Positions 5,055-47,724 of a DNA stretch of 64,000 nt are shown piece after piece. The stretch is from Candidatus Cloacimonadota bacterium (lineage in GTDB: Bacteria; Cloacimonadota; Cloacimonadia; Cloacimonadales; Cloacimonadaceae), in contig JAKOXG010000006.1 of NCBI GenBank assembly GCA_029781115.1, forward strand, positions 1-64,000, in the 5' to 3' direction. The first letter of the stretch is position 1. Every line of letters begins with the position of its first letter. Under the pieces are notes generated by a model. That model was not told the origin of the DNA, searched no databases, and saw only the letters and a program-made list of their open reading frames with translations. The position numbers were made by a program, and so were the translations under genes.

Positions 5055-8000
5055 TTATTTCATCAACATCACTTTCACAGATTGGCTGTGCTTGCCGCTG
5101 TTGATCATCACAAAGTAGACACCGCTGGCCACATTTCTGCCATGCTTGTCTTTTCCATTCCAATGCAGGGTGTGATTGCCCTCTTGCATAGCTCCGCTGC
5201 TGAGGTTACGCACCTTTTGACCGCGGATATTGTAGACATCCACGCTCACGTTTCCGGCTTTGGCCAGGCTGAAGGCGATATTTACATCCGGATTGAAGGG
5301 ATTGGGATAAGCCAGAGGTTTGCCTATCATAGCCACCACGGGTCTATCGCTGGGAACTATGTAGTTGCTGAGGCGGATGATGCACTCGTAAACACCGGCT
5401 TCGGCGGGTTCAAAGACCAGATCATTGACATGCGTGTTATAAAAGACTTTATCCTCGATAAAGAAGCCTATTTGCCAGTTTTCCGGCAGCGTGTTTTCGC
5501 CCCAGGAGAAGGTGACGGGGTCTGTGTTTGGCAGATCCAAAACCACGCTATATTCGATGATCTGCTGGATAGTTTCGTCCGTTTCCAAGGGGCTCTTGTA
5601 GAGACTCTGGAAGATATGATCCATCCTTCCCGTGGGATCGGTTTCGACGTTCAAATACATGCGGGGCATCTCAAAAGGAGGCTCCGGTGCTTTGGGAAGA
5701 TTGAGCATGAAGCCCACTTCGGTATCGATATAGTCGTGAGTTCCCACTCTAACCCAATCCACACCGCTGCCCGTTTCCGCAAAGAGATCGATGCAGCTCT
5801 GAGCCAGAGGTGGCGTCACATCATAAGATTCCCAGTAGGGGAAGAAGTTCACTTGACTGACGACCTGATCGCTGGCGTAATATTTAATATAGAATGCCTC
5901 AAACGGCTCTATCTGCTCGGCCAACTGATATCGTCCTTCTTTGAAAACATAGACCGCATTGGAAACCAAGCCCTGATTTACCATCTCGCCAAAGCGATAG
6001 GTTTTGCCATTTACGATGAATCTCAGGCTTTCCAGATCGTAGATGCAGAGATGAGGATTGCCGATCAGGTTCCAGCCGTCTTGCAGATCCACGCTGAACT
6101 CCTCGCCCTGAACCGCCGTCGAGGAGCCAAAGAAGGCCACGTCTGCGGGATTTACCCAGATGGGGCTATTGAAGAGGAAATCCTGCGCCGGCACCCAGTT
6201 TCCGTCCGAACCCATAGAGTAAGCGACAGTCCCATCTCCAAATGCCTGCGCCACCGTGACGGGATGCTCAGGCCAGGGATTGGTCATCGTCTGCCATCCG
6301 GGCACGAAGATAACATTGTTCATCCCGGGAATCAGTGCAAAAGTATAGGGCGAAACAAAGCGCGTGTGCACACCATCAACCGCATACATATCCCAGATCA
6401 GCTTGGTGTTTGGCATATTCGCTTGCTGCGGTATCGTGTAATCGACCGAGCTCTGCGCACTGGTCATGAAGCTGCTCACCAAGAGGCTGTCGGTCTCATT
6501 TTGCAGCGACAGTTCTACATGTTCCACCAGGAAAGGATGGGTATAATTCCAGCTGAAGGTAACATTATTGCCACCTTGCAGCACCTGGTTGGGCATGGTG
6601 GCAGGCCTGATCGCAGGCTGCATATTCCCCCAGAAGAGCGTGAAGGCGCGCACGTTTGAATTGGCATTGTTGAAGGTGTAAGGCCCTTCCAGCAGGTTGT
6701 GGTAGTTGCCCCCGTCGGCAAGCCAGAGCTTTTCGCCTCTATTGAAGGTGTTGCTGACTTCTATGGTGAGGGGCCCCGTCTGGTTGCTGCGCGTGCGCAT
6801 CGTCCAGGTCTTGAGCTCGTTATTCACATCATAACCACCCTTTACTTCCTGGGATAGATGTGTGCCCTGCTGGCCCCAACTGGGCTGCCAAAAGGCGTTC
6901 CACACATAGTTGCCGCTGGGGTTGCTTTTGGTGATATCCCAGTAGCTATCCCTGCTATCAGAGGCAAACTGGTTGTTGCCAAAGGTAATGCTATCCGTGA
7001 GGCTGCCTGCGCCATTGCGGATGCTGATAGTGTGCACGGGCATAGCGTGTCCCGAAGTGGGGAAATTGTGCATGTATTCGACGTTATCGGTGTTTGTGCT
7101 GCTAATCAGATAGGTATATACATCATGATTTGCCACGTCCAAATCCCACCATTCAAATGCCCCGATACCGGCTGCCAGAGCGGGATTGGTGAGCCAGCTA
7201 TCCACCATTTCATAGTCCATACCTTCAGATTTGCGATAGATTTTGAAGCCCTGATTGTTGTTCTGAATCGCCACATTCCAGGCAACCCTGATGCTCTGGT
7301 GCATTCCGTTCACCACAAAGCTGTTGATGTATGCCGGCGCCAAAGAGGTGGAAACTTCGTTGCTCAGCGAGGAGTAGTTACCGTTTTTATCTATGCCACG
7401 GATTTTGAAGTAATAGACGTTATCATTGGTTAGTCCGGTCACGGTGCTGCTTTCGCAGGCTTGAGAAGCCAGAAAGTTGTCGTTTGTCCTATTGAAGATG
7501 CTAAAGTTTTCCTCGCCAATAGGTTCGGTTGCATAGAGGATCTCATAGCTATCAAAATCAAAATCCGAACACCTGTCCCATGAGAGGGTTACTCTATCCA
7601 ATCCAGCAGACACGATGGCGAGGTTTTCCACCGCAGTCGGATCTTGGTCGTTATCCAGCTCTATCGTGTCGTCTATCACGGCTTTCAGGTGATAAACCCA
7701 AGGAGAGTAAAACTGCAAAAACTTGGTAAAGCGGTTTTCCAGGCTCCACTGCTGTGTGGTTTCATCCCAGCCATAAAACCAGTTGAAGTTGTTTTCCGTT
7801 TGCTCATAGCAGATAGGCAGCTCATCCATCTCAATGTGGAACCAGGGGTCATAAACATCATAGTCGTTCCAACCGTTGAGGGTATAAAGCATCTGTGTGC
7901 TGTATGCATAGCCGGGCAGGTCTATTTTGTCATTCACGGGATACTCATTGACCCCGTCACTCCAGGTAAAATCGTGGATATTGTAATGGACGCCGTAGAA

Positions 8001-8957
8001 ATCTGTGATGTGCACCGCCTCGTGTGTGCCGATTGTGTTTGCGGGATGGATGTATTCAGGAGCCTGATTAATCATGTCATTACGAGCGCCTGAGAGGTCA
8101 CGGATCGGGAGATTGGGACACAGACTCTTATTGCCCGCGGAGATCTGATTGTTGGGATATCCAACGTGCAAATCATAGTCATAGCTATGAATCTGCAACG
8201 AAAACTCCCTCATGTTATATTCGTCCCGGATGTGTGCTGCCATCTTTTCGTAGGCGTAATTGAATGGATGCGCTGCCACTCTGGTGGGATCCGATAGGGA
8301 TTTGCTATTGTAATATGGGGCAACTTGGGTCCATTTCGCCTCACGCCCAGCCCCACTGATGATCATAAAGCGTGGATCCAGCTCCTTCAAAGCCAGAGCT
8401 GCCATGGCGGGCGTGGGAAAATCGTCACAGGGATGCGGAGCAGTGATGATGATGGGGCGCGTGCCATTTGGATTGAAGAGATACAAACCCCAAGCATAGG
8501 CAAAAGATCCGATTTCATCATCATGGGGATCATCCGGAGTGCCGTTGTCATCGATGTAGCTCATAACCAGGTCTTCCCTCAGAAGATAGTAGGTGCGACG
8601 TGTTTCAGTATCGTTAAACTGCACCACCTGATAGGGGAAATTGTTGCTCTGGATCACAGCTTCCGCTTGCTGGTAGTCTCCGGCAAGCATATGGTCGATA
8701 ACGCTTTTCCACTGAATCGTTTCCAAGGCATTGATGGTGCGGAAATTGCCAAAACCATTGGTCTGCCTGTCATAAGGAGCATAATGATTGTAACCTGGCA
8801 AAGCAAGACCTTCTGCGATGTGCGATACCCAGTTATCATAAGCGCAGGCGGGCTCCGTGCCATATAGGAAATTGCGGAAGGAGCCTGTTTCTACGATTAT
8901 GGCACTCGCCAAGCTGAGCATCAGCACCATAATCAAGAATAAGAAGCATTTCTTCAT
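5055..8957 (-). CDS. Large secreted protein with FN3 and C-terminal sorting domain; N-terminal domain of uncertain, perhaps hydrolytic, type
   Basis: The 1300-residue protein starts with a signal peptide (MKKCFLFLIMVLMLSLASA). The region at about 60-420 is globular with conserved-looking His/Asp motifs (IITAPHPCDDFPTP, LQIHSYDYD, GTHEAVH). These loosely recall zinc amidohydrolase or carboxypeptidase sites, but I cannot assign a family. A fibronectin type III domain lies at about 443-540 (VENLAIVSAGLDRVTLSWD to YYFKIRGIDKNGNYSS). Beta-rich repeats follow. The C-terminus (about 1215-1300) is a FlgD-like sorting domain: YPNPFNPDVNIAFSL, VDVYNIRGQKVRNL, NVASGVYF, ending KVMLMK. Such tails direct proteins through type IX-like secretion to the surface. 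A GGAG site precedes the ATG. It is monocistronic. Confidence 0.8.
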   Translation of the reverse strand: MKKCFLFLIMVLMLSLASAIIVETGSFRNFLYGTEPACAYDNWVSHIAEGLALPGYNHYAPYDRQTNGFGNFRTINALETIQWKSVIDHMLAGDYQQAEAVIQSNNFPYQVVQFNDTETRRTYYLLREDLVMSYIDDNGTPDDPHDDEIGSFAYAWGLYLFNPNGTRPIIITAPHPCDDFPTPAMAALALKELDPRFMIISGAGREAKWTQVAPYYNSKSLSDPTRVAAHPFNYAYEKMAAHIRDEYNMREFSLQIHSYDYDLHVGYPNNQISAGNKSLCPNLPIRDLSGARNDMINQAPEYIHPANTIGTHEAVHITDFYGVHYNIHDFTWSDGVNEYPVNDKIDLPGYAYSTQMLYTLNGWNDYDVYDPWFHIEMDELPICYEQTENNFNWFYGWDETTQQWSLENRFTKFLQFYSPWVYHLKAVIDDTIELDNDQDPTAVENLAIVSAGLDRVTLSWDRCSDFDFDSYEILYATEPIGEENFSIFNRTNDNFLASQACESSTVTGLTNDNVYYFKIRGIDKNGNYSSLSNEVSTSLAPAYINSFVVNGMHQSIRVAWNVAIQNNNQGFKIYRKSEGMDYEMVDSWLTNPALAAGIGAFEWWDLDVANHDVYTYLISSTNTDNVEYMHNFPTSGHAMPVHTISIRNGAGSLTDSITFGNNQFASDSRDSYWDITKSNPSGNYVWNAFWQPSWGQQGTHLSQEVKGGYDVNNELKTWTMRTRSNQTGPLTIEVSNTFNRGEKLWLADGGNYHNLLEGPYTFNNANSNVRAFTLFWGNMQPAIRPATMPNQVLQGGNNVTFSWNYTHPFLVEHVELSLQNETDSLLVSSFMTSAQSSVDYTIPQQANMPNTKLIWDMYAVDGVHTRFVSPYTFALIPGMNNVIFVPGWQTMTNPWPEHPVTVAQAFGDGTVAYSMGSDGNWVPAQDFLFNSPIWVNPADVAFFGSSTAVQGEEFSVDLQDGWNLIGNPHLCIYDLESLRFIVNGKTYRFGEMVNQGLVSNAVYVFKEGRYQLAEQIEPFEAFYIKYYASDQVVSQVNFFPYWESYDVTPPLAQSCIDLFAETGSGVDWVRVGTHDYIDTEVGFMLNLPKAPEPPFEMPRMYLNVETDPTGRMDHIFQSLYKSPLETDETIQQIIEYSVVLDLPNTDPVTFSWGENTLPENWQIGFFIEDKVFYNTHVNDLVFEPAEAGVYECIIRLSNYIVPSDRPVVAMIGKPLAYPNPFNPDVNIAFSLAKAGNVSVDVYNIRGQKVRNLSSGAMQEGNHTLHWNGKDKHGRNVASGVYFVMINSGKHSQSVKVMLMK

Positions 8958-9180
8958 TTAGTTCTCCATGGGCTTTGTTTTTTTCTTCAAAACGCATCTG
9001 ACCAAAAGTTAGCTAATCGGTCAAGTGTTTTCTTTAATACGATGCAATTTTCAAGCCAAAGGTAAGTGAAGATATGAATCCTCATGACGAGCAGCTGGAA
9101 TTTGGGTGCTTTCAATTACATATTATTAGTGTTCAGGGCTTATCCTGTGGTCAGGATTGTATGTTTTTTACCCCCTTCTC

Positions 9181-9265
9181 CCTTACTCAGCCTCCCGGTG
9201 ATCCCTCGGTGATACTCGGGATTTTCCCGAGAGGCGCCGGCATATCACCGGGCGGCAGAGTAAGG
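9181..9265 (+). repeat. Palindromic intergenic repeat, family A, copy 1
   Basis: The 22-base arms CCTTACTCAGCCTCCCGGTGAT (9181-9202) and its near complement at 9244-9265 match at 20 of 22 positions. The middle contains a perfect inner hairpin CTCGGGA-TTT-TCCCGAG at 9215-9231. The whole unit recurs in inverted orientation at about 34756-34842, including the non-palindromic middle. Confidence 0.85.
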
Positions 9266-9313
9266 AAGGACAGGGTAAGAGGTATGGAATTTCCATGATT
9301 TCTGCAGCGTCTT

Positions 9314-9377
9314 GCCTGCGACCCACCTTACACCCTCCTTAATTGATGTAAGGCGGAATTAGGGTGGCTCGCAGGAG
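9314..9377 (+). repeat. Inverted repeat, family A module B, copy 1
   Basis: Outer arms CCTGCGACCCACC and GGTGGCTCGCAGG enclose a nested TTACA/TGTAA pair. A diverged copy lies at about 34656-34717 in the opposite orientation, again just beyond family A module A, so modules A and B travel together. Confidence 0.7.
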
Positions 9378-9510
9378 AGGATATTGGGTTAAACACAATA
9401 ACACCCCTATTATCAATCCCTTAGCCGCTACATTGGGACATGTTTTTAAAATACTCTTGACAAAAAAGGCCTCTCTGATGGAAGTGAACCTAACAATCGC
9501 GAAAACGATT

Positions 9511-9586
9511 GGGGCATTAGCTCAGCTGGGAGAGCGCATGACTGGCAGTCATGAGGTCAGGGGTTCGATCCCCCTATGCTCCACCA
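9511..9586 (+). tRNA. tRNA-Ala (anticodon GGC)
   Basis: A 76-base cloverleaf with CCA encoded. The acceptor GGGGCAT pairs with ATGCTCC and includes the G3-U70 wobble that is the alanine identity element. D arm GCTCAGCTGGGAGAGC; anticodon stem CATGA/TCATG with loop CTGGCAG (anticodon GGC, reading GCC and GCU); T arm AGGGG-TTCGATC-CCCCT. It lies 80 bases before the transketolase start, on the same strand. Confidence 0.98.
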
Positions 9587-9599
9587 CGTTATAAATGGC

Positions 9600-9640
9600 C
9601 CCCTTCGCTGCCCCGAGTAGCGAAGGGGATACTTATTTTG
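9600..9640 (+). terminator. Hairpin between tRNA-Ala and tkt
   Basis: A perfect 10-bp stem CCCCTTCGCT / AGCGAAGGGG with a 9-base loop begins 14 bases after the tRNA. It is followed by ATACTTATTTT, a poor U-tract. It may terminate the tRNA transcript partly, or mark its processing point, before transketolase. Confidence 0.65.
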
Positions 9641-9666
9641 AGCCCTTCAAAATCCATGAGGTAAAA

Positions 9667-11565
9667 ATGAGCAAGCAAGAATTGACCGGCATCCCCATGC
9701 TGGAAGCACGCAGCAAAGAAGCCCGAGCAGCCATTTTGACCATGACCACCCTCGCCGGTTGTGGCCATCCCGGTGGCTCTATGAGTTCCATTGATATTTT
9801 GAACTGTCTCTACCACACCATCCGCCACGATCCCAAGAACCCATACATGGAAAACCGTGACAGAGTGGTAGTCAGCATCGGCCACATCTCCCCCGCCGTA
9901 TACTCCATCCTGGCTTTGACAGGCTATTTCCCCCTGGAAGATGCCATCACCGGCTACCGCGTCCTGCACAGCCGCTACGAAGGTCATATTGAAAGGGAAC
10001 TCCCGGGTGTGGAGTGGACTACCGGAAACCTGGGACAAGGACTCTCTGCCGCTGTGGGCATGGCTTTGGCAGCAAAGATAAAGAACAGTGACGCACGCGT
10101 GTATGTATTGATGGGCGATGGCGAGCAACAGAAAGGACAGCAGGCAGAAGCCAGGCTCATGGCCTCCAAATATCAGCTCAACAACCTCTGTGCCATCGTG
10201 GATTACAACCGCTTGCAGATCAGTGGCTCCATCAACGATGTGATGCCCCAAAACATCCGCAAGAGCTACGAAGCCGATGGCTGGATGGTCATGGAAGTTA
10301 ATGGGCACGATTTCAGACAGATTCTCAGCACCTTAGAGCAAGCCAGAAAACAAGAAAAGCCCGTGATGATCCTGGCTCGCACCGTGATGGGCAAGGGTGT
10401 GGACTTCATGGAAAACCAGCATAAATACCATGGCTCAGCCCTCAAGCCAGAACAGCTGGAAGAAGCTCTGAAGCAGCTTGGTGAACCCAACCGCTTTGAA
10501 GAATACAAGGCACTCCGGGCTGTGACGCCGTTTGCACCTGCGTTAGCACTGGATGAGCACTTCAGCTTGAAGACCGACCTCCAAGCCGGACAACCAATTG
10601 TCTATGAAGAAAAGACGGACAATCGCAGTGCTTGGGGCGCAGCGATCAAGGATCTGGGTGAAATCAATCAAGCTGCCCAGACGCCTATTGCTGTCTTCGA
10701 TTGCGACCTTTCCGGAAGCGTGAAGACAGATGGCTTTGCGAAGGCTTTCCCGGAGAGATTCTTCCAGGCGGGTATCATGGAACACAATACCTGCGTGGCT
10801 GCAGGTGCGATGTCCTCGTGCGGCATCCAAACTTTCTGGTCAGATTTTGGCATGTTCGGAGCTGCTGAAGTGTATAACATGCAGAGGCTTAACGACATCA
10901 ACCACGCCAACCTCAAGGTGGTGCTCACCCACGCCGGCATAGATGTAGGCGAAGACGGAAAGACGCACCAGAGCATAGATTACATCTCTTTGTGTAGAAC
11001 CCTGCCCGGCGTCAGAATCATCCTGCCCGCGGATCCCAATCACACAGACCGCATCATCAGATGGCTGATAGACAAACCCGGCAACTACGTAGTCGCCATG
11101 GGACGCTCCAAAATCCCCATCCTCAAGACGGATGCAAACCAACTGATGTATCCCATGGATTACAGCTTTGAATATGGTAAGGCAGACCTGCTGAGAGAGG
11201 GGAACCAAGGCTGCGTGCTGGTTTGTGGAACCCCTGTGGCCAACACCATCAAAGCCGTGGATACCCTGCGTGAACAAGGAATCTTCCCCAAGCTTTACTA
11301 CATCTCCAGCCCCTTGAGCCTGGAGAGAACTCTCTTGGAAGAAATCGCCAAACTGGGTAAAGTGGTCACCATCGAGGATCACTTCATCCGGGGCGGCCTG
11401 GGAACCACACTTGCGGAACGCCTGGCCGAGGAAGGTCTCTGCGCCAGACAACTGAAGATTGGCGTGGATAAATATGCTCCCAGCGCACCCTCAGATCAAC
11501 TCTACCAATACTTTGGCATGGATGCACAGTCCTTGATCAAAAGCATTGGCGAGTGGGTGCAATAG
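9667..11565 (+). CDS. tkt: Transketolase
   Basis: Thiamine-diphosphate enzyme of the non-oxidative pentose phosphate pathway that moves two-carbon units between sugar phosphates. The 632-residue protein is a single full-length chain: GHPGGSMSS at 33-41, TTGNLGQGLSAAVGMALA, the TPP/Mg motif MGDGEQQKGQ, then the pyrimidine-binding half (VFDCDLSGSVKTDGF, HAGIDVGEDGKTHQSIDY) and the C-terminal domain. The ATG at 9667 has GAGGT 5 bases upstream. An in-frame ATG at 9595 lies before the upstream hairpin and is rejected. A strong terminator follows. It could alternatively be a transketolase-like paralogue, but all signature regions are present. Confidence 0.93.
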   Translation: MSKQELTGIPMLEARSKEARAAILTMTTLAGCGHPGGSMSSIDILNCLYHTIRHDPKNPYMENRDRVVVSIGHISPAVYSILALTGYFPLEDAITGYRVLHSRYEGHIERELPGVEWTTGNLGQGLSAAVGMALAAKIKNSDARVYVLMGDGEQQKGQQAEARLMASKYQLNNLCAIVDYNRLQISGSINDVMPQNIRKSYEADGWMVMEVNGHDFRQILSTLEQARKQEKPVMILARTVMGKGVDFMENQHKYHGSALKPEQLEEALKQLGEPNRFEEYKALRAVTPFAPALALDEHFSLKTDLQAGQPIVYEEKTDNRSAWGAAIKDLGEINQAAQTPIAVFDCDLSGSVKTDGFAKAFPERFFQAGIMEHNTCVAAGAMSSCGIQTFWSDFGMFGAAEVYNMQRLNDINHANLKVVLTHAGIDVGEDGKTHQSIDYISLCRTLPGVRIILPADPNHTDRIIRWLIDKPGNYVVAMGRSKIPILKTDANQLMYPMDYSFEYGKADLLREGNQGCVLVCGTPVANTIKAVDTLREQGIFPKLYYISSPLSLERTLLEEIAKLGKVVTIEDHFIRGGLGTTLAERLAEEGLCARQLKIGVDKYAPSAPSDQLYQYFGMDAQSLIKSIGEWVQ

Positions 11566-23152: not shown

Positions 23153-23863
23153 AAATCTTTAACTCCTGTGCAAATCATGTATCGATAACCTCCAAGCGTT
23201 TTTCGATCCATCGCGTATACCCCAAGGTATATACCACGACAATGATAGATTAATCGCGAGCATGGCAAAAAACAAGGGAATAATTGGCGAAAGTCGGTAA
23301 CTTAGCCCCAAGATGCTGTGTTTTGGCACGTTATCTTGAGTAGAATCGCGTTCTTTTGCTCAGATCACGGCTGCCTCCCTTAACGTCATTATTCTGCACA
23401 TTTCCACCTCTGATTTCAGCTCGATTTTACCTACCTCCGCACCCAGAAAAAGTAGAGCGTTTTGAAATATTTGACCTTGTCGTGAATGAGCATAAAGCAA
23501 TAACACCTTTTTCGACCCTCCTCAAATGCCCATTTAATGCGGACTCCTAACTCCTTCCCTACTACCCTCCTGCTCCTTGAGCAAGTAACGAGTAGGAAAG
23601 CAGGCAGTTAGGAGGCTGAGCCGAGCAGGAGCAAAGGCACCTTTTGGAGACCGGTCGGCCAGGGTGAAAAGGCAAATGTTTTGCAAACAACGGATATAGG
23701 TCAAACAAAATAACACCCACTAAATAGGTAGGTGATTATCGGGGAGTTATCGTTCTGAGCAACAGCTATCCCAAATACCGCATAAAGCACTTGAAATCAC
23801 ACCACCTCCACCCCACCTTACAAAACTATTGACTCCAACTGCCCCTCAATATATTGGGAAATT
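23153..23863. other. 711-base gene-free region with long repeat
   Basis: No credible gene. It contains repeat family C copy 1 (23447-23640), a 27-base motif shared with 9.38 kb (23692-23718), and the upstream flank of dinB. Short ORFs at 23356-23550 (+) and 23534-23716 (-) lie in the repeat; the plus one contains the peptide stretch conserved with the 47.6 kb copy. Confidence 0.8.
23447..23640 (+). repeat. Long intergenic repeat, family C, copy 1
   Basis: About 190 bases that recur in inverted orientation at about 47545-47724. Conserved blocks in order include GTTTTGAAATATTT, GACCCTCC-CAAATGCCCATT, ATGCGG, CTCCTGCTCCT, AAGTAACGAGT, AAAGCAG and GTTAGGAG. The second half is an imperfect palindrome with arms CTCCTGCTC (23567-23575) and GAGCAGGAG (23623-23631). 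Confidence 0.85.
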
Positions 23864-33672: not shown

Positions 33673-34581
33673 GTGGCCAAAAAGAAACGCAACCCCCTGC
33701 TTTTCAAATTGCAAAACTCGCTCGAGTATGCCGCCCTGCGTGGCGTTCTTTTTGTGCTGAGACTTCTCCCTTGGAAACTGAGCAGAAAGCTCATCCAAGG
33801 CCTCTTTGTTGGCATAGGTTACCACCTTGGCATCCGTCGCAAAGTCGCATACACCCAGATCAGCAAAGTGTATCCGGATTGGGACGAAAAGAAGAAAGCC
33901 AAGGTGCTGAAAGACATGTATCGCAATATGGGGCTCAGTGTCGCCTCTATCTATTTGATGAAAGAGTCGCAGTTGCTGGCTTCCTGTTCCATGGTCGGCG
34001 AAGAGTATGCGCGGAAGGCCTATTCCTATGGCAAGGGTGTGATTCTTGCCACCGCACATCTGGGGAACTGGGAAGCAGCCAGGATCTTCCCTCTCAAAGA
34101 CATGCCAATGTCCGTGATCGTGCGTAAACAGCGTAACACCTACTTTGATAAATTTCACAATGCCATCCGCAGCCTCTACGGAATGGACATCCTTGACATG
34201 AGAAAAGGGCTTAGAGGCATCATCTCTGCCTTCCAAAAGAACCACATGGTGGCCATCCTCATGGATCAGAATGCCGGCAAAAGCGGCTTGGTTATGGACT
34301 TTCTGGGCTTTCCTGCCTCACATTGGGTGGGTGTCGCCAAGTTGTCATTGCGTTACAAAGTCCCCATCCTACCGGGCGTTGCCCTTCTCACACCCGAAGG
34401 AAACACCGTCTTCACTTTCGAACCAGTTATCTACCACCCCGACTGGGAAGACAAAGAAGAAAACTATCCCATTCTACTCAAAGAAGTTAACGAAATCATA
34501 GAACGCTATATACACCAATACCCCTCTCAATGGTTTTGGGTGCACAAACGCTGGAAAAGCACCAAAGCAATGCTGGACTGA
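33673..34581 (+). CDS. Lipid A biosynthesis acyltransferase, LpxL/HtrB family
   Basis: Adds a secondary acyl chain to the lipid A precursor at the inner membrane. The 302-residue protein has a hydrophobic N-terminal anchor (about 18-35), the catalytic HLGNWE (H-x4-E variant of the family's HX4D/E), MDQNAGKSGLVMDFLG, and a terminal WFWVHKRWK motif typical of the family. It starts with GTG at 33673, 5 bases after the thioredoxin gene. With lpxK at 18.7 kb it supports a lipid-A-bearing outer membrane. Confidence 0.9.
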   Translation: MAKKKRNPLLFKLQNSLEYAALRGVLFVLRLLPWKLSRKLIQGLFVGIGYHLGIRRKVAYTQISKVYPDWDEKKKAKVLKDMYRNMGLSVASIYLMKESQLLASCSMVGEEYARKAYSYGKGVILATAHLGNWEAARIFPLKDMPMSVIVRKQRNTYFDKFHNAIRSLYGMDILDMRKGLRGIISAFQKNHMVAILMDQNAGKSGLVMDFLGFPASHWVGVAKLSLRYKVPILPGVALLTPEGNTVFTFEPVIYHPDWEDKEENYPILLKEVNEIIERYIHQYPSQWFWVHKRWKSTKAMLD

Positions 34582-34655: not shown

Positions 34656-34717
34656 TCCCTGCTTGCCTCCTCAATTCCTCCTTATATTATTTAGGTTGGG
34701 TGCAAGGTGGATGGCAG
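34656..34717 (-). repeat. Family A module B, copy 2
   Basis: On the minus strand it reads CCACCTTGCACCC, then TAAGGAGGAATTGAGGAGGC and GCAGGGA, matching 9314-9378 with small gaps. Order and orientation relative to module A are the same as in copy 1. Confidence 0.65.
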
Positions 34718-34755
34718 TCTTCAATGGAGAAATACCCCGCTGTTTCCTACCTCTT

Positions 34756-34842
34756 CCTTGCTTAGCCTCCCGGTGATTACCCGGAGCCTCCCGTAAAAAA
34801 CCCGAGTATCTCCACGGCATCACCGGGCGGGTGAGTAAGCAA
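34756..34842 (-). repeat. Family A palindromic repeat, copy 2
   Basis: Arms GCCTCCCGGTGAT and ATCACCGGGCGG flank a middle that matches the reverse complement of the 9203-9243 middle (for example GAGCCTCCCG and CCCGAGTATC). The two copies are therefore a true inverted duplicate, not just two unrelated palindromes. Confidence 0.8.
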
Positions 34843-34891
34843 GAAGGGGGTGGCGAGCCTATTAACAAAGAGGGACTGAAGGGAAATATCC

Positions 34892-35018: not shown

Positions 35019-36851
35019 TTAGTCCACGGTCACGCTTTTGGCCAGGTTGCGGGGTTGGTCTACGTTCAAGTTGCGCAGATCCGCCACATGGTAGGCCAAG
35101 AGTTGCAAGGGAACTACGTTTAGCAGGGGTTGCAGGTTTGAAAGTGTGTCTGGGATGCAGATCAGGTGTTCGGCTATTTCCTTCAGCTCCGGGGTTTCTT
35201 CGGTGGTAACAATGATCAGCCTTGCGCCGCGAGCTTTGACTTCCTGGAGGTTGGTGTAAACCTTGTCAAAGAGGGCGTCATGCGTGGCGATTGCGACCAC
35301 GGGCATGTGTTCATCAATGAGCGCGATGGGGCCGTGTTTCACTTCTGCTGCGGGATAGCCTTCGGCGTGGATGTAGGATATTTCCTTGAGCTTCAGGGCT
35401 CCTTCCAGCGCCACGGGGTAGTTTATCCCTCTGCCCAGGTAAAGCGCATTGGTGCTATCTTTAATGCTGGCAGCAATTTCCCTAATCTTATCGTTTTTCT
35501 TTAAGATTTCCTCGATCTTCTCAGGAATTGCTTTGAGTTCAGTGATGTATTTATGCCCGTCTATTGGGTTTAGGGAGCGCTGTCTGGCCAACAGGATGGA
35601 CAGCAGGGTCAGGATGGTTACCTGTGAAGTGAAAGCTTTGGTGCTGGCGACGCCGATCTCGCTGCCGGCATGGATGTAGGTACCGCCGTCAGTCTCCCTG
35701 GCAATGGTGCTTCCCACCACGTTTGTGATGCCTAACACGGTGGCACCCTTGGCTTTAACTTCTCTGAGAGCAGCCAAAGTATCTGCCGTTTCTCCGGATT
35801 GGCTGATCACAAAGACAAGTGTGTCATCCGGGATGATGGGGTTGCGATAGCGATATTCAGAGGCGATTTCCGCATGAACGGGGATGCGTGCCATATCTTC
35901 AATCATGTATTTACCGATCATTGCAGCATGGTATGAGGTTCCGCAGGCTACCAGATGTATCTGTTTCACCTTGCGCAACTCGCTCATGGGGAGGTTCAGG
36001 CCACCCAAGCGGGCTGTGGAACGCTCTTCATTGATGCGGGTGCGGAAACCATTGGCGATGGTGATCGGTTGCTCAAATATCTCCTTGAGCATAAAGTGCT
36101 TAAAGTCACCCTTATCGATGGCGGAAATGTCCCAATCCACCGTGGAAATCTTGGGATCGACATGCATCTTATCCATGGTGGTGATATTCATCCCCTCTTT
36201 GGAAATCACTGCCATTTCATGGTCCTGCAGATAGACAACGCGGCTGGTGTGGCTCACGATGGCGTTTACATCGCTGGTGACAAACATCTCCTTCTCGCTC
36301 ACACCGATGATGATGGGGCTGCCTTTCCTCACGCAGAAGAGTTTTTCCGGTTCATCTTCCGAAATCACCACCAAGCCATAGGTGCCCTCGATAGCCTTAA
36401 GAGCCTCACGGATGGCATCTTCCATGGTATCTGTGGTTTTGCGGTATTGCTCGATCAAGTGGGCGATAACCTCGGTATCGGTATCGCTTTTGAAGGTGTG
36501 TCCCAGCTTTTCCAGGCGTTGTTTGAGCAGTTGATAGTTGTCTATGATGCCGTTATGAACCACGGCGAGGGTACCAGTGCAATCAGCGTGGGGATGCGAG
36601 TTTACCTCAGTGGGGCCTCCGTGAGTAGCCCAGCGTGTGTGTCCGATAGCCACATTTCCGTTGCAGGAATTGGGGTCTGGGAGTGAGCGTTCCAGCTCGA
36701 TGATTCTGCCTGTCTTTTTGTATATCTGCAGCTTACCGTCGTGGATGATTCCACAGCCAGAGCTGTCATAGCCCCTATATTCCAAACGTTTAAGAGCCTC
36801 GATCACTATAGGCAGTGCGTTGCGGTGTCCTACGTATCCGACGATTCCCAT
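35019..36851 (-). CDS. glmS: Glucosamine-6-phosphate synthase lacking the N-terminal catalytic cysteine
   Basis: Makes glucosamine 6-phosphate from fructose 6-phosphate for peptidoglycan and lipid A. The 610-residue protein has a glutaminase domain (1 to about 240: RLEYRGYDSSGCGI, GHTRWATHGG, VVHNGIIDN, SDTDTEVIAHLI) and two SIS isomerase domains (CGTSYHAAMIGKY, SQSGETADTL, GSEIGVASTKAFTSQ), ending NLAKSVTVD. The start reads Met-Gly-Ile-Val-Gly-Tyr: the Cys that follows Met in the family (MCGIVGY) is absent, and upstream codons (Arg-Arg-Thr) offer none. AAAGGAG precedes the ATG, which lies inside the end of the upstream permease gene (22-base overlap). Isomerase activity with free ammonia is expected; glutamine use is doubtful. 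Confidence 0.93.
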   Translation of the reverse strand: MGIVGYVGHRNALPIVIEALKRLEYRGYDSSGCGIIHDGKLQIYKKTGRIIELERSLPDPNSCNGNVAIGHTRWATHGGPTEVNSHPHADCTGTLAVVHNGIIDNYQLLKQRLEKLGHTFKSDTDTEVIAHLIEQYRKTTDTMEDAIREALKAIEGTYGLVVISEDEPEKLFCVRKGSPIIIGVSEKEMFVTSDVNAIVSHTSRVVYLQDHEMAVISKEGMNITTMDKMHVDPKISTVDWDISAIDKGDFKHFMLKEIFEQPITIANGFRTRINEERSTARLGGLNLPMSELRKVKQIHLVACGTSYHAAMIGKYMIEDMARIPVHAEIASEYRYRNPIIPDDTLVFVISQSGETADTLAALREVKAKGATVLGITNVVGSTIARETDGGTYIHAGSEIGVASTKAFTSQVTILTLLSILLARQRSLNPIDGHKYITELKAIPEKIEEILKKNDKIREIAASIKDSTNALYLGRGINYPVALEGALKLKEISYIHAEGYPAAEVKHGPIALIDEHMPVVAIATHDALFDKVYTNLQEVKARGARLIIVTTEETPELKEIAEHLICIPDTLSNLQPLLNVVPLQLLAYHVADLRNLNVDQPRNLAKSVTVD

Positions 36852-47367: not shown

Positions 47368-47544
47368 GTCCTTTTTTTATGAGCGCAAAGTGGAGTGTTG
47401 CCATTCTCTTTTTACCCACGGACTCAAGGCAGGCAAAGAAGTGCCCATTTTGGGCTTTAAATTGCTTTCATGTTCCAGATGATTGTGCAAAATTTGACTT
47501 TTGGCAGCAGCTTACCACTTGTCGAAACCCGTTTTTTGCTGCCC

Positions 47545-47724
47545 TTGGCTCCTGCTCCTAACCTACTGCTTTTCCACTCGTTACTTACTCGAGGAGCAGG
47601 AGAGCAGCAGGGGCGGAGTTGGCAAGCCGCATGGAATGGGCATTTGCGGAGGGTCAAAACAGGCTGTTTTGCTTGACCTTTATCGATACGCAGGTTAAAT
47701 ATTTCAAAACGACCTACTTTTCCC
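47545..47724 (-). repeat. Long intergenic repeat, family C, copy 2
   Basis: The inverted copy of 23447-23640. Its palindromic part has perfect 11-bp arms CTCCTGCTCCT (47549-47559) and AGGAGCAGGAG (47592-47602). The stretch on the minus strand encoding VGRFEIFNL to KCPFHA matches VERFEIFDL to KCPFNA in copy 1 without gaps over about 31 codons. Confidence 0.85.

Follow-up and report, generated by a model that had tools for sequence, protein, structure and literature searches.

The ERIC, NEMIS (Correia) and YPAL repeats are elements of 100-300 nt that fold into long hairpins and lie scattered between genes. REP/BIME elements are built on a palindromic unit of 20-40 nt with a tetranucleotide guide, and the RAYT gene associated with them is flanked by the same palindrome. 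The IS-derived MITEs of bacteria are short, non-coding, intergenic, high-copy elements that carry TIRs and a stable stem-loop, are bordered by a target duplication, and have an autonomous IS with the same ends (PMC10969869). The repeats described here consist of a module A and an optional module B, and as a family they show every one of these MITE features. They depart from the published account of MITEs in two respects: their partner belongs to the IS1380 family, which that paper does not mention, and their two-hairpin core is more conserved than the adjacent spacer and homogenised in each genome.

The A/B family resembles the ERIC, NEMIS and YPAL repeats in its length of 100-300 nt, its hairpin folding and its position between genes (sequence was compared through Rfam alone), and differs from them in its modular build, its AT-rich duplication of 5 bp and its IS1380 ends. 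With REP, BIME and REPIN elements it shares palindromes located between genes and the formation of mosaics, and the source genome also contains true RAYT-linked REPs; however, neither A nor B flanks the RAYT genes, and length, TIRs and duplication are different. The likeness to the IS1380 family (ISEcp1 type) lies in the termini, since an element of a related genome, whose transposase is detected as IS1380, has TIRs and a 5-bp duplication that match the MITE ends; unlike that family, the MITE is geneless, and the transposase is only ~24-31% identical to plasmid IS1380 relatives.

At the level of the family, the A/B repeats have the defining features of MITEs and lack those of REP/BIME elements, and they are a new family within an established class of element, the IS-derived MITE. 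We put the probability that the element analysed here belongs to a MITE family derived from IS1380 at about 0.7. In this way, a high-copy intergenic repeat that lacked annotation, from an uncultured phylum, is linked to a defined transposase family, and its mobility can be tested directly, given that intact members are available together with empty sites and an autonomous relative. No earlier description of palindromic repeats in Cloacimonadota was found in the literature searched, a scope that left out most subscription journals and preprints.

Two copies in the window and the family around them

The window, that is, the whole stretch of 64,000 nt that was analysed, contains two copies of the element. 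In copy 1, module A (9168-9278, plus strand) is a quasi-palindrome of ~111 nt with an asymmetric apex, GATACTCGGGATTTTCCCGAGAGGC, matched by the covariance model at 9166-9286 (E 1e-33), and module B (9311-9375, plus strand; E 2e-18) is a hairpin of ~65 nt located 3' of A. Copy 2 lies on the minus strand, with A at 34735-34855 (covariance-model match, E 1e-36) and B at 34658-34722 (E 2e-14). The first-pass annotation had proposed that both modules recur in the same order on the opposite strand, and pairwise alignment, which recovers A and B together with part of their linker at those places, bears this out; it had located the modules correctly and misjudged their lengths, A being longer than it proposed and B having the bounds given above. 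Copy 1 folds at -116 kcal/mol, compared with -75 for shuffles (z -9.0), and copy 2 reaches z -4.6 against its shuffles.

To the left of copy 1, a gene for a 1300-aa secreted protein with a FlgD_ig / Por sorting tail (5055-8957, minus strand) is transcribed away from it, while a tRNA (9511-9583, plus strand) and a transketolase gene (9595-11565, plus strand) follow on its 3' side. Copy 2 sits between convergent genes, one of the lipid A acyltransferase family (33673-34581, plus strand) and one encoding GATase and SIS domains of the glucosamine-6-phosphate synthase type (35019-36851, minus strand). The window also holds a second inverted pair (23448-23625 and 47544-47721), which is a different palindromic intergenic repeat with at least 40 matches in its own genome.

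A BLAST search with 9165-9400 returned many places in the same genome besides the query itself, down to E ~1e-32, which excludes the outcome that the first-pass annotation had set against a repeat family, namely that there are no further copies. With covariance model R1 (E <= 3e-25), 63 copies of A were counted in the source genome, G000, a near-complete assembly of 2.25 Mb in 22 contigs with gaps; most of them score on the opposite strand as well, because A is a quasi-palindrome. Module B has 18 copies there, every one beside A and none without it, and relative to A its orientation is constant and its place is downstream, as a rule 131-155 nt beyond the start of A. All 56 distinct copies of A that were examined with a rough gene finder are intergenic, occur in both orientations and overlap no predicted gene, so the A family is non-coding and multicopy, as a MITE is.

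The model search of 41 genomes gave at least 88 matches in the sister species G005 and 4 in G002, and none in the 16 genomes of other families of the order. Copies found by the model in six further genomes (G021, G004, G001, G003, G016 and G019) have the same outer stem and a different inner sequence. An exact-core scan of public genomes returned Cloacimonadota only, including records of isolate USST_metabat.121, and the exact core was absent from the viral contigs scanned. As a separate observation, the arms of hairpins in G003 (L292, L299), G008 (L083) and G012 (L072) resemble tandem, near-identical 11-nt units, such as CACCCTTGTCT and CCCGGGAACTA.

Termini, insertion sites and an IS1380-type relative

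Several of the G005 copies have inverted repeats at their termini, CCCARATAATGCARTAG, which enclose A or A+B and no gene. A complete unit (L223:13799-14089) runs over 291 nt from TIR through spacer, A, linker, B and spacer to TIR, and L218 has the same layout without B, an A-only form of ~190 nt. TIRs are present in the intact members L218, L223, L270 and L274. The target duplications are AT-rich and 5 bp long, in some copies with 1-2 mismatches: TTTAT stands on both sides at L218, TTCAA at L210, where the element is nested in another MITE, ATTAA at the one intact member of the source genome (L270; 190 nt, contig C7 at 64.5 kb), and TTAAA at a G004 member that has diverged and shares these ends. 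An IS5-type origin with a TA or 3-bp duplication, read at one point from few junctions, was discarded, as the duplication is 5 bp once CCC/GGG is taken as the end.

Comparison with relatives adds empty sites to this picture. The site of copy 1 is empty in the two nearest species, the spacer measuring 338 nt in the window (9060-9397, which cannot be aligned to the orthologous spacers), 66 nt in G005 and 61 nt in G002. The net insertion of ~272 nt is near the 291 nt of the full G005 element and ~62 nt longer than A+B. Copy 2 occupies the same site in G000 and G005 and is therefore older than the split between them. The site of a G005 copy at L208, between ftsW and murG (gene names read from sequence), is cleanly empty in G002. 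In a second copy at L208, compared with L173 of G002, the element appears to stand 3' of ftsW at the very start of the apparent murG and to replace the first codons of that gene in G005. Four sites at which A has opposite orientations in G000 and G005 were considered as in-place inversions and rejected as unproven, since the immediate flanks differ and ~10 chance co-occupancies are expected from ~600 spacers.

An autonomous relative was found in G045 (L280). It is an IS of 1.6 kb bounded by the same TIRs, with GTAAA on both sides, and it encodes a 469-aa transposase whose best model is IS1380 NF033539 (E 5e-48; 163.8 bits, below the NCBI equivalog cut-off of 180), with Pfam PF13701 at E 5e-24. 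The right end of the G004 MITE resembles this IS over ~33 nt. A PF13701 search of 26 genomes returned no match to the IS transposase, because the IS is either missing from them or split at contig ends; repeats usually break assemblies at contig ends. At contig ends of G005, the start of a transposase gene follows the TIR, and a 34-aa query recovered this gene start where the PF13701 search had not. An IS1380-like match at G005:C47 was rejected as the partner, being a different IS without these TIRs. Against this background, the first-pass proposal of a non-autonomous mobile family holds: relatives show empty sites, intact members carry TIRs and target duplications, and a matching IS1380-family IS exists in relatives.

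The ancestral unit would have had the order TIR (CCCARATAATGCARTAG)-spacer-A-linker-B-spacer-inverted TIR, 291 nt in all. Its TIRs would have been recognised in trans by an IS1380-family transposase, the enzyme being deduced from the identical ends, and the repeats have most probably been spread by a transposase of this type. The unit would have inserted at AT-rich intergenic sites with a 5-bp duplication, a mode of insertion seen in intact G005 members, in one G000 member and in one G004 member. We infer that the window copies are older insertions that would have lost their ends by erosion and kept a recognisable hairpin core; they are placed in the family by A/B homology and by insertion size (~272 versus 291 nt). 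No IS1380 transposase was found in the gapped assembly of the source genome, so transposition there has probably ceased; an autonomous partner in the same genome is no defining need for old copies. In G025, a genome from another family of the order, more than 400 matches to the same TIR occur (L257-L265), in pairs ~160 nt apart and with different interiors, in what appears to be a very large MITE expansion. The association of these TIRs with other interiors is as expected if the ends are the mobilisation signal.

Upkeep of the palindromic core

Among TIR-bearing copies, which were selected for good TIRs, mean identity is highest in inner A (0.86), lower in the TIR (0.72) and lowest in the adjacent spacer (0.515). 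The nearest copy comes from the same genome in 103 of 112 copies, the copy tree requires 7 changes of genome label compared with ~40 when labels are shuffled, and pairs that share a site lean to the consensus of their own genome, a tendency that is least clear in the G005 counterpart of copy 2. Core A is homogenised within each genome.

Between species, the dyad symmetry, the outer stem and an ATA/AGG apex mismatch are kept and the sequence is replaced. In the alignment of G000 with the six genomes of divergent copies, both partners have changed in 22 of 27 pairs, and the covariation score is 0.593 versus 0.265 for shuffled and 0.11-0.17 for slid alignments; the cells counted here are not independent of one another, and this alignment also served to predict the structure. 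The copies of G000 taken by themselves hardly covary (2 of 23 pairs). Where only one partner of a pair has changed within a genome, the outcome is G-U 65 times and A-C 66 times in G000, and G-U 46 times and A-C 90 times in G005, the latter with the same skew as at unpaired sites. A selected transcribed hairpin should favour G-U, and as no excess of G-U over A-C occurs, the palindrome is read as maintained at the DNA level and not as an RNA structure of one strand. The same palindrome, kept by two-sided changes in several species without the G-U bias of RNA hairpins, is a natural experiment in which one can ask whether palindromic repeats persist through conversion, template switching or protein recognition.

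On the MITE reading, the core would be kept as a DNA palindrome by gene conversion among copies combined with hairpin template switching, or else by a protein that recognises the palindrome. The apex loop is flipped in L187 and L223, and the ATA/AGG mismatch has become perfectly paired in L218 and L177, which suggests template switching at the hairpin. A possible, if unlikely, alternative is that A is a DNA palindrome to which a protein of the host or a transposase binds, the site co-evolving with its binder in each species, with six-letter cores every 11 bp that would face one side of the helix. Conservation of the sequence within a genome and its replacement between species with the dyad kept are consistent with such a site, as is the 11-nt unit spacing, a periodicity read by eye. 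However, the binder is hypothetical, template switching at quasi-palindromes would keep the dyad too, and the four copies just named show apparent symmetrising or apex-flipping changes. We regard as doubtful the broader proposal that the core is a selected DNA structure or a phased, multi-site protein target, whose copies evolve in concert within a genome and through which a mobile repeat would have become a genome-wide, species-specific DNA-recognition system.

Hairpin, transcript and REP-like readings

It seems quite unlikely that the hairpin of A or A+B is itself the mobile unit in the source genome, for example as single-stranded DNA moved by another enzyme, and that it hitch-hikes in IS1380-type and T2 elements in some species. 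The ends of the copies could be taken in this sense: neither of the two window copies shows recognisable TIRs (their left ends score 11 and 18, control mean 14.2), most G000 copies have no recognisable TIRs, similarity among them ends close to A or B, and A stands in two terminal contexts, T1 and T2. Taken as a set, the G000 copies show a weak enrichment for the left TIR, with 7 of 56 exceeding the 95% level (p 0.006), and none for the right one. On the other hand, all three junctions well resolved against empty sites (L208, L218 and L049) have ends of type T1 or T2, a precise insertion lacking TIRs was not seen, the copy-1 insertion extends beyond A+B, and B is never found without A.

Some copies do lie inside T2, a second MITE with other ends (GGCTCATGTTCAATTT), and the core can thus also travel with other termini. 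At L210 in G005, this second MITE, with ends GGCTCATGTTCAATTT...AATTGAACTTGAGCC, has an IS1380-type element nested inside it, and A-core copies with the same ends occur in G000, G005 and G002.

The first-pass annotation had further suggested possible action in mRNA 3' ends, which is not supported here. We consider it very unlikely that A is a conserved RNA element with a host function, whether as a 3'-end stabiliser, a terminator or an RNase III site. The very stable fold of A, the two-sided changes across genomes and a core more conserved than the spacer would agree with such a role, as would a mild excess of copies between convergent genes (15 of 50, versus ~14% of intergenic bases, by the rough gene finder), an excess that fits promoter avoidance equally well. 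Against it, A shows no preferred orientation relative to neighbouring genes (+A- 15, -A- 13, -A+ 11, +A+ 11), paired positions show no strand-specific tolerance of G-U in either genome, covariation within G000 is nearly absent, there is no U-tract, and presence is patchy with empty sites. An Rfam search of the window at gathering scores returned a tRNA alone and left A and B unmatched.

Dispersal as a REP/BIME family, an affiliation offered by the first-pass annotation, by the RAYT (Y1) transposases of the genome is scarcely credible: two Y1_Tnp genes of 224 aa do exist in G000 and RAYT-type REPs often lie directly right of A, but these genes are surrounded by other REPs with the core GTACGGGCGGTCGCTGAACCGCC and without A or B, and neither the unit length of 111-291 nt nor the TIRs and duplication fit. 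The mobile unit favoured here is the IS1380-derived MITE. The two RAYT genes (L031, G000:C20 at 42 kb; L032, C19 at 1 kb) stand in dense REP arrays of the form GTACGGGCGGTCGCTGAACCGCC / GTATGGTCGCTTGCCATAGCGACC. In L102, L105, L219 and many G005 copies, RAYT-type REPs occur at one spot just right of A (..GAGGTAGGG|TCG..), an apparent hot spot of REP insertion at which REPs split A from B in some copies.
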